A program made the translations under genes and the position numbers. From an uncultured Bacteroidales bacterium (lineage in GTDB: Bacteria; Bacteroidota; Bacteroidia; Bacteroidales; P3): 64,000 bases of DNA. The stretch is from the NCBI GenBank assembly GCA_900315335.1, contig OMYR01000020.1, positions 1 through 64,000 of the forward strand, given 5' to 3'. This document shows, piece by piece, positions 3,221 through 57,451 of the stretch; position 1 is the stretch's first letter, and each line of letters begins with the position of its first letter. The notes beneath the pieces were generated by a model. It saw nothing but the letters and a program-made list of their open reading frames with translations. It was not told where the DNA came from and did not search any database.

Positions 3221-3325
3221 TCGTTTTCTCACGTTTATTTATTAGTTACTCACACTAATAAAATAATCACTCATATTAATTTATTAATCACTCACACTAT
3301 TTTGATAGTGTTAATAAACAAAATT
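3221..3325. repeat. 21-bp degenerate tandem repeat, array R1 (5 units)
   Basis: Units start at 3221, 3242, 3263, 3284 and 3305, each exactly 21 bases. The best three share the pattern TTAATCACTC followed by ACACTAATTTA-like sequence. The array lies between the cupin start and its probable promoter, so it would be transcribed as an untranslated leader. Confidence 0.75.
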
Positions 3326-8320: not shown

Positions 8321-8393
8321 TCAAAAATATTGCATATTTATAAGTAAAATTGCCCGAAAACAAGAAAAAGATTTTTGAAGTGTTATTACAAAA

Positions 8394-8477
8394 ATAATGT
8401 TTAACACTAATTTATTAATGTTAAACATTAGTAAAATAATCTCACTAATCATTTTAATGATGTTTAATATTATTTTC
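8394..8477. repeat. 21-bp degenerate tandem repeat, array R2 (4 units)
   Basis: Units start at 8394, 8415, 8436 and 8457. A typical unit is ATAATGTTTAAC followed by ACTAATTTA with one base shared. A weaker fifth unit may lie at 8373. The array sits between the 3' end of the gene at 8594 and the nitroreductase promoter; nothing else is visible in this roughly 300-base gap. Confidence 0.8.
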
Positions 8478-21305: not shown

Positions 21306-21350
21306 TAAGTTATATATAATGTTATAAAAATAAATAGTGATAAGGAAAAT

Positions 21351-21434
21351 TTAATATTTAATATTATGAAATTAGTGTTAAACATCAGCAAAATAATATT
21401 AAACATCAGTAGAATAGTATTAAACACTAATTTT
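21351..21434. repeat. 21-bp degenerate tandem repeat, array R3 (4 units)
   Basis: Units start at 21351, 21372, 21393 and 21414; typical content is ATTAAACATCAGTA and TTAAACACTAATTTT. It lies between the terminator of the giant gene and the dinB promoter. In the minus-strand reading it spells hydrophobic heptads such as VFNTILL and MFNIILL. Together with the terminator it accounts for most of the roughly 310-base gap. Confidence 0.8.
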
Positions 21435-21498
21435 ACGAATAGTGTTAATATTGAATTTTGATGATATAGGGTTATTTCTTCAACTGAATGAAAAGTAT

Positions 21499-25637: not shown

Positions 25638-25742
25638 TTAATGTGTGAGATTATTTTACCGGTGTTTAACACTAATTTATTAATGTGTGAGATTATTTCA
25701 ATGATGTTTAACACTGATAAAATAATAAGTGGGAAGAAATAA
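25638..25742. repeat. 21-bp degenerate tandem repeat, array R4 (5 units)
   Basis: Units start at 25638, 25659, 25680, 25701 and 25722 with no indel. Units 1 and 3 differ at one base, and units 2 and 4 are close to each other, so the array looks like an alternating two-unit (42-bp) pattern. It fills the space between aguA and the WG-repeat gene. Confidence 0.85.
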
Positions 25743-28686: not shown

Positions 28687-28725
28687 GTTTGTGATATTAG
28701 AAAAATATATAGTCAAATAGATTTT

Positions 28726-28851
28726 TTAGTGTCAAATATAATTTTGCTGATGTTTAACACTAATTTAATAGTGTTAAACATTATTTTGTTGGTGTTAAAT
28801 ACCATTTTGCCGATTGCTGATGTGAATTTTCCAACTTCTGATGTCGGAGAA
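28726..28851. repeat. 21-bp degenerate tandem repeat, array R5 (6 units)
   Basis: Units start at 28726, 28747, 28768, 28789, 28810 and 28831. The first four are close to each other (T.GTGTTAAA and CATTTTG-like ends) and the last two are more diverged. The array lies between two terminators in a convergent region, so it is not expected to be part of a main transcript. With the terminators it explains most of the 378-base gap. Confidence 0.8.
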
Positions 28852-31819: not shown

Positions 31820-31839
31820 ATCTTATATCACGTTTTTAA

Positions 31840-31944
31840 TTCCACATATCAGAAAAATAGTTTCACACATCAAAAAATTAATTACTCACACTAATATTTT
31901 AATCACTCACATTAAAATATTGGTTTCACACATCAATATTTTTA
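31840..31944. repeat. 21-bp degenerate tandem repeat, array R6 (5 units)
   Basis: Units start at 31840, 31861, 31882, 31903 and 31924, each exactly 21 bases, with the core TTCACACATCA or CACTCACATTA. It lies inside the apparent ricT-gldH-PBP1A operon, between the stop of the ricT-like gene and the start of gldH. Confidence 0.82.
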
Positions 31945-35385: not shown

Positions 35386-35536
35386 TGATTGCAAAGAAGA
35401 TTTAAGAAAAACGGCATCTTGATTTCTCATAGTCTTTTGTGGATTTATTTGGTAAGTATTTCGTAGAAATATAGGGAGTAGTCGTTTTTTGAATGGATTT
35501 ATTGAGATTGGAAAAAAATGAAGTGTTTTTGAATTA

Positions 35537-35599
35537 TTGATTAGTGATATTGGATTTTTAGTGTTTAACACTAATCGAATAATTATTAACACTGTTTGA
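35537..35599. repeat. 21-bp degenerate tandem repeat, array R7 (3 units)
   Basis: Units start at 35537, 35558 and 35579; the middle one is the clearest (TTAGTGTTTAACACTAATCG). It lies between the DHOD-like gene and the four-helix-bundle gene; the rest of that 280-base gap shows nothing. Confidence 0.7.
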
Positions 35600-37369: not shown

Positions 37370-37797
37370 GTTACCGATATTCGGATTTATTGAAAGTTAT
37401 TGATTTTATCAAATCGGTAATATGTTAAATTTTACTTGACAAACAAAAACCTGACATTTCAGGACAAACTTGATATCGTGTCAGGATTATTATTCTAATT
37501 ATTTTAATGATAAGTATAATTAATTGTTATGTAGGTTGTTAATAGTTGTTAAATTTCTTGACTGACTGACATACTATATGAATGTCAGTCAGTCAAGAAA
37601 TCTAACATAACAGAAGAGGAGTACTATATATTGAATGTATATATAGTACCTCCTCTTCTTTCGGTGATATGTTAATTTTGATGTATTTTTTAGTGTAAAA
37701 TCAATTTCTGATGAATAAAAAATAATCACTGATATTGTTAAATTAGTTTCACTGATTAGTGAAATAGTGTTAAACACTAATTTAGTGGTGTGAGATA
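37370..37797. other. Convergent intergenic region with hairpins and repeat array
   Basis: 428 bases between the convergent ends of holB and the porin gene. It holds a weak hairpin (CCTGACA 37450-37456 with TGTCAGG 37479-37485), two strong hairpins (37553-37659) and array R8. No gene is visible. Confidence 0.7.
37553..37659. repeat. Two adjacent long perfect or near-perfect hairpins
   Basis: Hairpin 1: arms 37553-37572 and 37582-37601, 20 bp, perfect, 9-base loop, built from TGAC-rich sequence. Hairpin 2: arms 37612-37631 and 37639-37659, 20 bp with one bulged C, 7-base loop. The spacing between them is 10 bases. Neither has a good T-run on either strand. Termination of the two convergent transcripts is possible, but a small mobile or structured RNA element is also possible. 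Confidence 0.8.
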
Positions 37798-37805
37798 CTA
37801 ATCTA
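37690..37805. repeat. 21-bp degenerate tandem repeat, array R8 (about 5 units)
   Basis: A first unit at 37690-37710 is followed, after an 11-base phase shift, by four exact 21-base units at 37722, 37743, 37764 and 37785. The last unit covers the stop codon and final residues of the porin gene on the minus strand. Confidence 0.78.
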
Positions 37806-42135: not shown

Positions 42136-42157
42136 AAGACATAAGTATGTTGAAAAA

Positions 42158-42241
42158 ATAATCATTGAGATTAGAAAAATAATGTGAGTGATTAGAAAAA
42201 TAATCATTGAGATTAATAAAATAGTTATTGAGATTAGAAAA
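42158..42241. repeat. 21-bp degenerate tandem repeat, array R9 (4 units, most regular)
   Basis: Units start at 42158, 42179, 42200 and 42221, sharing ATAATCATTGAGATTAGAAA with few changes; a decayed fifth unit may reach 42262. It separates the TPM gene from lemA inside an apparent operon. In the plus frame it reads as heptads such as EIRKIIT, which makes a false upstream extension of lemA possible. Confidence 0.88.
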
Positions 42242-42268
42242 ATAATAACAAATAAAAAATATATAGAG

Positions 42269-46425: not shown

Positions 46426-46530
46426 ATAGTGTGGGAGACTGATTTACTGATTACTCAAACCAATTGATTAATCATTAACACTGATTTACCGATTGGTGAT
46501 ATTAGAAAAATGATTTGTGAAAAGGTGATA
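46426..46530. repeat. 21-bp degenerate tandem repeat, array R10 (5 units)
   Basis: Units start at 46426, 46447, 46468, 46489 and 46510; the central one is TTAATCATTAACACTGATTT. It lies between the terminator at 46314 and the uvrB promoter, and with them fills the 320-base gap. Confidence 0.78.
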
Positions 46531-55378: not shown

Positions 55379-56203
55379 TTACTTTTTCTTAATATCTTTG
55401 ACCAAACGGAATCCCGTACCCGTACCTCTGACATTGGCATCAAGACATCTTCTGTGATGAGTATTCATAAGCGCATAATCGAAAGCAAAACACCCTCCGC
55501 GATTGACTTTACCCAAGCCTTGCTCAGGACCTTTGGGATTGTTTGACGGGGAGTTTTCATAATAAAATACTTCGTAATTATCGCTGCACCATTCCCACGC
55601 ATTGCCACTCATATCATATATTCCCAATTCGTTAGGAGCCTTGACGCCTACGGCATTGGGCTGACGCACTGAATTTTCGTAGCACCAGCCGACTTCGTCC
55701 CAATTGTCGCTGCCTGCATATTTGAAACCTTTGGATTTTTTACCGCCTTTGGCTGCATATTCCCATTCGGCTTCGGTAGGAAGTCTGCAACCCATATATT
55801 TCGCATAGTCGTAGGCTTCCTGCCAAGTGAGATAAACGATAGGGTAGTTGTCGTGCCAACCATACGGTGGTTCTTGCGGCATCGTTTTGCCCGTTTTGTT
55901 ACAATAATCTCTGTATTCTTGGACGGTTACTTCGTATTTGGCAATATAAAAACTATTCACGGTTACTTTATGTGCAGGTCTTTCGTCGGGATAACAGTCT
56001 TCACCCTCGCCGTTACAGCCCATAATAAAACTGCCCCCTTCAACCCTTATCCAATAATCCTCAGTGAATTGAGCAAATAATGAAGAAGCAAAAACAATAT
56101 TAAACATCAATAAAATAATTACTGACACTGATTTATTAATCATTAACACTGATTTTTTGTTTTGATTTCTTTTTATTTTTTGTTTATCGACCATATTTTC
56201 CAT
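55379..56203 (-). CDS. Exported SUMF1/formylglycine-generating-enzyme-like protein with a repeat-derived signal peptide
   Basis: 274 residues. The C-terminal 225 residues are an FGE-sulfatase (SUMF1) domain: GGSFIMGCNGEGEDCYPDERPAHKV, YIAKYEVTVQEYRDYC, YPIVYLTWQEAYDYAKYMG, CRLPTEAEWEYAAKGG, GIYDMSGNAWEWCSD, VNRGGCFAF and GTGFRLVKD. The Cys pattern near the C-terminus (GGCF and HRRCLD) differs from the usual FGE pair, so catalysis is not assured. The N-terminus has a signal peptide ending SLFAQ. Its hydrophobic core, residues 17-37, is encoded by three 21-bp repeat units and reads KSVLMIN, KSVSVII, LLMFNIV. Start at 56203 or at Met21 (56143). It lies 9 bp after the amidohydrolase gene and is probably co-transcribed. 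Confidence 0.85.
   Translation of the reverse strand: MENMVDKQKIKRNQNKKSVLMINKSVSVIILLMFNIVFASSLFAQFTEDYWIRVEGGSFIMGCNGEGEDCYPDERPAHKVTVNSFYIAKYEVTVQEYRDYCNKTGKTMPQEPPYGWHDNYPIVYLTWQEAYDYAKYMGCRLPTEAEWEYAAKGGKKSKGFKYAGSDNWDEVGWCYENSVRQPNAVGVKAPNELGIYDMSGNAWEWCSDNYEVFYYENSPSNNPKGPEQGLGKVNRGGCFAFDYALMNTHHRRCLDANVRGTGTGFRLVKDIKKK
56094..56156. repeat. 21-bp degenerate tandem repeat, array R12, inside a coding region (3 units)
   Basis: Units start at 56094, 56115 and 56136 and have the family pattern (ATAATTACTGACACTGATTT, TTAATCATTAACACTGATTT). The array lies in frame within the signal-peptide region of the SUMF1-domain gene. Confidence 0.85.
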
Positions 56204-56212
56204 AACACAAGG

Positions 56213-57451
56213 CTAATTGTTTTTTACGAATTTCCGTGCTTTGGCAATTATTTCCTCTTCGTTCGGAATATATTTGTTTTCCATAAGAATATTGCCGTTG
56301 CAAATAACGTCGGTAATGCAACTGCTATCGCCGCTATATACCATATTATATATAAGATTCCAACAAGGAACAAGACGTTCGTTATTCATATCCACCAATA
56401 TGCAATCGGCTTTTTTACCTTCTTCAATCTTGCCTGCATTGATGTGATAAGCCTTTGCACCATTGATTGTAGCCATATCGAAGACTTCTTTTGCCGTCAA
56501 AGCATCTGCCGAATTATGACTGACTTTCGCCAAAAGAGAAGCGAACTTCATCTCCTCAATCATACTTAAATTATTGTTGGAAGAACATCCGTCAGTGCCG
56601 AGAGTTATGGAAATATTATGCTTTTTAATAAGTGGAATGTTTATCGCACCCGAAGATAATTTCATATTACTGCAAGGATTATGCACTATCGTAACGCCTT
56701 TGTTCTTAATAATCTTGGCATCGTTGTCGGTTAGATGCACGCAATGGGCTGCTATGGTCTTGGAGTTCAAAACACCTATGGAATTTAAGTATTCGGCAGG
56801 GGTCATATTGTGAGCCTTTTTGCAGTCATTGACTTCTGTAAGCGTTTCGGACAAATGAGTTTGGACAAACATATTATTATCATTTGCAAAATCAAAACAA
56901 CGTTTGTATAATTCGCCGCTGCAAGTGTATATTGCGTGAGGTGCAGGAGCAAAACTTATTAAATCATTGTTGTAAGCAGAATATTCTTTCAAAAAAGCAA
57001 AATTATCATCTATCTTCGCCTTTCCAAGATTGTCCATAAAGCAGACACCTATGTTGGCACGAATATTCATCTGCTCCACGGCACGAAGTATATCGCTATG
57101 AAACCAATACATATCGGCGAAAAACACTGTACCGCTGCGTATCATCTCAACTATTGCCAATCGAGTGCCGTCGTAGATGTCTTCACCGGTAAGTGTATCT
57201 TCTTTTGCCCAAATTTCATTAAGCCACGGCATCAATGGTTTGTCTTCGCTGTAACCACGTAAAAGACACATGGCGGCATGAGTGTGAAGATTATAAAATG
57301 CAGGCAAAATGGCTTTGTTTGTTGCGTCAATGGTTTTGTCGATGTGAATTGTTTTGGTATCGATACTTCCGATTTTTTTGAATGTATCGTTTTCGATTAA
57401 TACATCTGTCATTACATTATTCAGAAGTACGTTTTTGATAAGTATATTCAT
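56213..57451 (-). CDS. Amidohydrolase, probable S-adenosylhomocysteine/methylthioadenosine deaminase
   Basis: 412 residues, an ATZ/TRZ-family amidohydrolase. Metal ligands are visible in NLHTHAAM (first HxH), QTHLSETLTE (third His), AHCVHLTDND (fourth His) and LGTDGCSSNNNLSMIEEM (Asp). The Ser-Asn-rich end of that last motif and the ML-RGYSED-like LLRGYSEDKPLMPWL fit the MtaD group that deaminates S-adenosylhomocysteine and methylthioadenosine. Guanine or cytosine deaminase is less likely but possible. Cytoplasmic. Upstream -7 candidates lie at 57508 and 57571. Confidence 0.85.
   Translation of the reverse strand: MNILIKNVLLNNVMTDVLIENDTFKKIGSIDTKTIHIDKTIDATNKAILPAFYNLHTHAAMCLLRGYSEDKPLMPWLNEIWAKEDTLTGEDIYDGTRLAIVEMIRSGTVFFADMYWFHSDILRAVEQMNIRANIGVCFMDNLGKAKIDDNFAFLKEYSAYNNDLISFAPAPHAIYTCSGELYKRCFDFANDNNMFVQTHLSETLTEVNDCKKAHNMTPAEYLNSIGVLNSKTIAAHCVHLTDNDAKIIKNKGVTIVHNPCSNMKLSSGAINIPLIKKHNISITLGTDGCSSNNNLSMIEEMKFASLLAKVSHNSADALTAKEVFDMATINGAKAYHINAGKIEEGKKADCILVDMNNERLVPCWNLIYNMVYSGDSSCITDVICNGNILMENKYIPNEEEIIAKARKFVKNN

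Follow-up and report, generated by a model that had tools for sequence, protein, structure and literature searches.

The window analyzed here is the whole 64-kb stretch of DNA from an uncultured Bacteroidales bacterium (the present genome, G000), which was compared with its sister genome (G002) and the rest of a genus set of 14 genomes, G000 included. Two adjacent genes on the reverse strand of the window are separated by a gap of 9 bases, and the features considered at this locus are the following.

56213–57451, reverse strand: amidohydrolase gene (PF01979, E=3e-72), directly upstream of the SUMF1-type gene
55379–56203, reverse strand: gene of a SUMF1/FGE-sulfatase-domain protein, 274 aa as the longest ORF, with the likely start M21 at 56143
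56094–56156, reverse strand: array of three 21-bp units, in frame in the SUMF1-type gene, encoding residues 17–37
56144–56203, reverse strand: upstream extension of the ORF (codons 1–20), probably an untranslated leader, with 6 nonsynonymous and 1 synonymous differences in 20 codons
56069–56143, reverse strand: probable real signal peptide MINKSVSVIILLMFNIVFASSLFAQ (codons 21–45), as indicated by pN/pS, with cleavage predicted near FA/Q

The SUMF1-type protein matches the FGE-sulfatase domain PF03781 over residues 49–269 (E=7e-50, 170 bits, profile positions 3–255 of 255, that is, near full length), and its relatives in PDB are formylglycine-generating enzymes and similar proteins (E 1e-26). 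Its predicted membership in the FGE family is a domain match, and no enzyme activity is claimed. The C-terminal coding sequence of the amidohydrolase is conserved upstream of SUMF1-type orthologues, the gap being short in most relatives read.

The units of the array encode the heptads KSVLMIN, KSVSVII and LLMFNIV, so that three in-frame units at residues 17–37, as described in the initial annotation, are confirmed by the ORF and the array scan. A sequence-only model of the repeat (R1), whose training set excluded this array, gives it a score of 36.4 bits, with E=4.7e-10 in a search of 88 kb. Moreover, among 365 gene starts (first 150 nt) the SUMF1-type gene has the top array score, 40.8, the median being -26, and synonymous recoding of its peptide with the genome's own codons reached this score in 0 of 2000 trials.

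Comparison of G000 with G002 points to a start codon inside the array. In codons 1–20, pN is 0.118 and pS 0.107 (six nonsynonymous differences and one synonymous), in codons 21–45 pN is 0.017 and pS 0.245 (1 and 4 differences, respectively), and in the mature part of the protein pN is 0.020 and pS 0.201. By this codon test, which uses as few as 12 differences in codons 1–45, the pattern is that of neutral evolution in codons 1–20 and of purifying selection from codon 21 on; hence, translation probably begins from the ATG within unit 1, M21 (56143). Such a start suggests that unit 1 is mostly 5' leader providing the ATG, while units 2 and 3 make up the n- and h-regions, and the array would then be the source of the start codon and n-region of the predicted signal peptide as well as of most of its h-region. 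This signal peptide, MINKSVSVIILLMFNIVFASSLFA followed by Q, has the expected Sec features, that is, a charged n-region, a hydrophobic h-region and a small-residue c-region, and is positive by a simple rule; the repeat-coded peptide likely works as an export signal, cleaved between FA and Q or close by.

The 21-bp repeat family and its turnover

The consensus of aligned units is TTARTGTTWAACAYTAA followed by TWWA, the former being an odd palindrome of 17 bp and the latter an AT spacer of 4 bp, and the usual array consists of 3–6 units at exactly 21 bp. Only a limited number of half-sites make up the variable center of the unit (AGTGTT, GATGTT, AATGTT, AATCAC, AATGTG and others). The genome was sampled as stretches of 481 kb in total, containing 86 arrays, or one per 5.6 kb, which extrapolates to about 380 per genome; two order-3 Markov null sequences, each 481 kb long, contained no arrays. 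Most arrays are intergenic, and they fold as imperfect hairpins, much better than their dinucleotide shuffles do (mean z of -3.4 versus -0.7 for flanks, p=1e-15). Placement tied to gene 3' ends was rejected, as in co-directional gaps the tendency is weak, with 26 of 46 arrays closer to the upstream stop.

The window contains about 11–12 other arrays. Those listed below are given without strand.

3228–3311: intergenic array, of one family with the SUMF1 array
8381–8473: intergenic array
21346–21447: intergenic array
25638–25728: intergenic array occupying the gap that separates two co-directional genes
28721–28815: intergenic array
31837–31943: intergenic array
35532–35597: weaker intergenic array
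37743–37801: array at a gene 3' end
42154–42254: intergenic array
46426–46482: intergenic array

Eleven other genus genomes have no array in the gap corresponding to 25638, and five have none in that corresponding to 42154; thus, at the two intergenic loci compared, array position is not conserved across the genus, and new sites do gain arrays. Between G000 and G002, each of these two arrays shows an identical substitution in two of its units, a likely sign of concerted change within arrays. The array at 28721 lacks one whole unit in G002. At 31837 the flanks are conserved and the total length is identical between the sisters, with almost all units different, and this difference reads as whole-unit exchange between the sister genomes. 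Our preferred explanation is that new sites receive units by copying or conversion, no enzyme being known for either.

Among 101 genomes of the family, the G000 dialect of the repeat occurs only in G000, G002 and G001, and marginally in G008; scanning the genus with greater sensitivity yielded two further, weak matches in G011. Arrays phased at 21 or 22 bp occur in other species of the genus too, there with cores that are entirely different, such as AATCACGCAGATTA in G001 (L186–L191), TTCTTTTCWGAAAAGAA and GACCGTCCAAAAT in G008 (L192–L206), AAAACAAAG in G007 (L200/L221) and AAAACATATGTTTT in G013 (L201/L207–L209); phased arrays with a different core are likewise present in G012 (L198–L199).

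Arrays in other coding sequences

A coding array had been considered unique to the SUMF1 locus. This is not the case, as in the sampled contigs three more genes of exported proteins have an in-frame array in the signal-peptide region, and an array is also present in one protein of the ATP-binding type and in one linker.

C66:47354–48316: binding-protein-like lipoprotein gene (periplasmic-binding-protein-like), in-frame array in the signal-peptide region
C43:17108–17857: TPR lipoprotein gene, in-frame array in the signal-peptide region
C16:47654–48115: SPOR-like protein gene, in-frame array in the signal-peptide region
L106:1546–1608 (contig C56 of G000): array KLVSHTNKLVLNISEIVSHTNF, in frame, midway through an ATP-pyrophosphatase-like (ATP-binding-type) protein
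C48:61743–63005: LysM/peptidase-like protein with an array in a linker

The lipoprotein, TPR and SPOR-like names are assigned by sequence reading, not by family search. Array-free relatives of the binding-protein-like lipoprotein and of the SPOR-like protein have unrelated signal peptides (the N-terminus of the SPOR-like orthologue in G005 is unreadable). The array of the TPR gene is common to G002, with unit differences, and the gene has a strong 21-bp periodicity in another sequence dialect in G001 and a weaker one in G004 and G008; its N-terminal extension appears to be repeat-coded in G000, G002 and G001, and less strongly in G004 and G008, in each case in the genome's own dialect. All four signal-peptide genes, the SUMF1-type gene included, exceed 2000 synonymous recodings each. 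Signal peptides, as delimited by a crude rule on gene calls that are simple longest ORFs, account for 2.2% of coding DNA but contain 4 of the roughly five to nine arrays located in coding sequence (P about 1e-6 to 3e-5), the TPR leader, which failed the crude rule, being counted as a signal peptide by its lipobox and hydrophobic stretch.

Two more genes were seen in passing. A pantothenate-kinase-like gene of G008 (L193:17377–18147), named from its N-terminal motif, has an in-frame array in the G008 dialect, and a membrane protein of G000 starting with MMFNKNLAMFNKNSSVFNKNYTFSHIALNILL (C43:76302–78323, reverse strand) has degenerate 21-bp heptads immediately ahead of the first of its hydrophobic segments.

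The location of most arrays in intergenic regions, about one per 5.6 kb, their strict phasing and their folding well beyond that of the flanks would be expected if the array were primarily a nucleic-acid element, either a hairpin in the mRNA where genes meet or a binding site for a protein, phased at two helical turns per unit. Selection would then act on DNA or RNA rather than on the peptide, and the overlap with signal peptides would be a by-product of tight gene spacing. We give this explanation somewhat less than an even chance. Against it, codons 21–45 of the SUMF1-type gene, with four synonymous differences and one nonsynonymous, look as under protein-level selection, and the coding overlaps strongly favor signal-peptide genes. 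A nucleic-acid role is also compatible with replacement of the signal peptide, and the two explanations are not exclusive.

It is unlikely that the array is a classical MITE or REP element moved by a transposase in trans, so that its entry into the SUMF1-type gene would be a transposition. The lineage-specific positions and the hairpin folding are in line with such an origin, but around the units neither a leader or tail nor terminal inverted repeats are conserved, and no conserved ends flank the arrays, in which the phasing just fades with the units; a MITE with defined ends was rejected on this ground. Similarly, the REP/RAYT variant was rejected, as the Y1/RAYT-type transposase (PF01797) was found in 0 of 14 genus genomes with a positive control search, and the units change through whole-unit loss, swapping and concerted substitution.

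Orthologues and the proposed history

SUMF1-type orthologues are present in 12 of the 14 genus genomes (G000 counted), and other genera of the family have them too. In 10 of the 13 other genus genomes, as well as in other genera, the gene is array-free and encodes an ordinary, unrelated signal peptide, for instance MRFSNVKFKLCIFALICFGVFFNPLYAQ in G004, MQKFNIATFCLIILLSGTIFGQ in G010 and MLKNKLIILLFCFSLSLHAQ in G005. These signal peptides end in AQ, GQ or SQ, followed by the same conserved domain. The array score at the N-terminus is 40.8 in G000 and 38.0 in G002, and about -7 to -27 in the array-free orthologues of the genus; G001 has arrays elsewhere in its genome and none at the SUMF1-type gene. 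The repeat-coded N-terminus is thus confined to G000 and G002, which form one clade with support of 100/100 in a tree whose remaining part is poorly resolved for the genus.

Given the unrelated signal peptides of the array-free orthologues, the SUMF1 signal peptide predates the repeat and was overwritten: the predicted export signal is ancestral, and the repeat replaced a part of it but did not create it. Orthologues with an unrelated signal peptide had been named initially as a check of origin from the repeat, and those found, in ten genus genomes and in other genera, indicate replacement instead. Accordingly, of the initial proposal it stands that a mostly intergenic repeat is now coding and provides most of the SUMF1 hydrophobic core, while the origin of the signal peptide from the repeat does not.

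That proposal, in which the capture of non-coding repeat sequence lying upstream of an older start gave a signal peptide to a formerly unexported protein, does account for the repeat-encoded hydrophobic core, but every array-free orthologue, in or outside the genus, has a signal peptide of its own, and capture, which we consider very improbable, could be revived only if all of these were independent gains. A chance resemblance of an AT-rich signal peptide to an AT-rich repeat, conceivable given that hydrophobic codons are T-rich, is ruled out by the 36.4 bits from an independent model, the zero arrays in the Markov null, the recodings, the median gene-start score and the scores well under zero of the orthologous array-free signal peptides, and its probability is practically negligible.

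The composition of the unit offers a possible reason for the preference for signal peptides. Because the unit is near-palindromic, each strand normally has a single open frame, TTA GTG TTW AAC ACT AAT, the other two reading TAG or TAA. The open frame encodes largely hydrophobic heptads, so that signal peptides would tolerate an array; judging from sequence and placement statistics, a repeat insert would usually be harmful in a folded domain and acceptable as, or beside, an h-region.

We consider the following history probable. In the ancestor of the genus the SUMF1-type protein would already have been exported. In the G000/G002 lineage, a palindromic 21-bp-phased array would have come over the junction of the amidohydrolase and SUMF1-type genes, displacing the old start and signal-peptide sequence of the latter. 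From the ATG in unit 1, units 2 and 3 would have formed workable n- and h-regions, joined to the older c-region (FASSLFA before Q). Selection would have retained only arrays with a tolerated peptide, and this would be why coding arrays are located at signal peptides, linkers and gene ends. The SUMF1 array presumably arrived by insertion or conversion; as no intact array-free version of the locus is near enough for base-by-base alignment, insertion and gradual conversion are not told apart, and the stretch between the amidohydrolase stop and the mature domain does not clearly exceed that of G004, G011 or G001 in length. More tentatively, and with a probability well short of that of the history above, there may exist a genus-wide repeat system of one architecture (palindromic arrays phased at 21 or 22 bp and located largely between genes) with lineage dialects, turning over by whole-unit exchange, probably with a co-evolving binding or copying factor, and repeatedly rewriting signal peptides.

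In general, as far as sequence comparison can tell, in this rumen Bacteroidales lineage a hairpin-forming 21-base repeat has replaced or lengthened parts of existing predicted export signals in several genes. Thus, as orthologues with and without the array indicate, a dispersed repeat can provide the material from which an existing export signal is rebuilt, and this has happened several times in one genome; signal peptides would be a soft landing site for repeats entering proteins. An old function can have been taken over recently by an N-terminus that is unique to one species, which calls for caution in claiming new signals from a single genome.

Comparison with known systems

Rickettsia palindromic elements (RPE) are dispersed palindromes found in frame in many unrelated genes and apparently tolerated in the protein (PMC10969869). 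The G000 arrays are also palindromic, dispersed and in frame within unrelated genes, but RPE are, by description, single palindromes of about 150 bp from Rickettsia, whereas the elements studied here are tandem arrays of 3–6 21-bp units from Bacteroidales, a different phylum, which are mostly intergenic and whose coding copies favor signal peptides. The BrickBuilt MITE/minisatellite of Porphyromonas gingivalis consists of tandem 23-nt units without spacers, dispersed and intergenic (PMC4596501). The similarity includes the order Bacteroidales and the dispersed, intergenic tandem arrays of short units, but the G000 unit is 21 bp long with a 17-bp odd palindrome, and the number of loci is about 380 per genome (by extrapolation) versus 19. 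Moreover, BrickBuilt has a leader and a tail with inverted-repeat ends, which the G000 arrays lack, and is reported to be always intergenic, unlike some G000 copies, which are coding. Palindromic amphipathic repeat coding elements (PARCEL) are tandem coding repeats with DNA dyad symmetry, often in membrane-targeted proteins (PMC2996958); they are 25-residue coding domain repeats, whereas the G000 repeat is mainly an intergenic 21-bp array.

The G000 repeat thus lacks defining features of both RPE and BrickBuilt, and literature searches for 21-bp arrays in Bacteroidetes/Bacteroidales retrieved nothing. REP and BIME elements are extragenic hairpin-forming repeats present in hundreds of copies; the G000 repeat differs from them in the unit and the phasing, and in that no Y1 transposase was found in the 14 genomes of the genus. 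Finally, in the classic yeast invertase work, random sequences reportedly act as signal peptides, which explains how a hydrophobic repeat frame could replace one; the case described here is a natural and recurrent genomic one, not a library.
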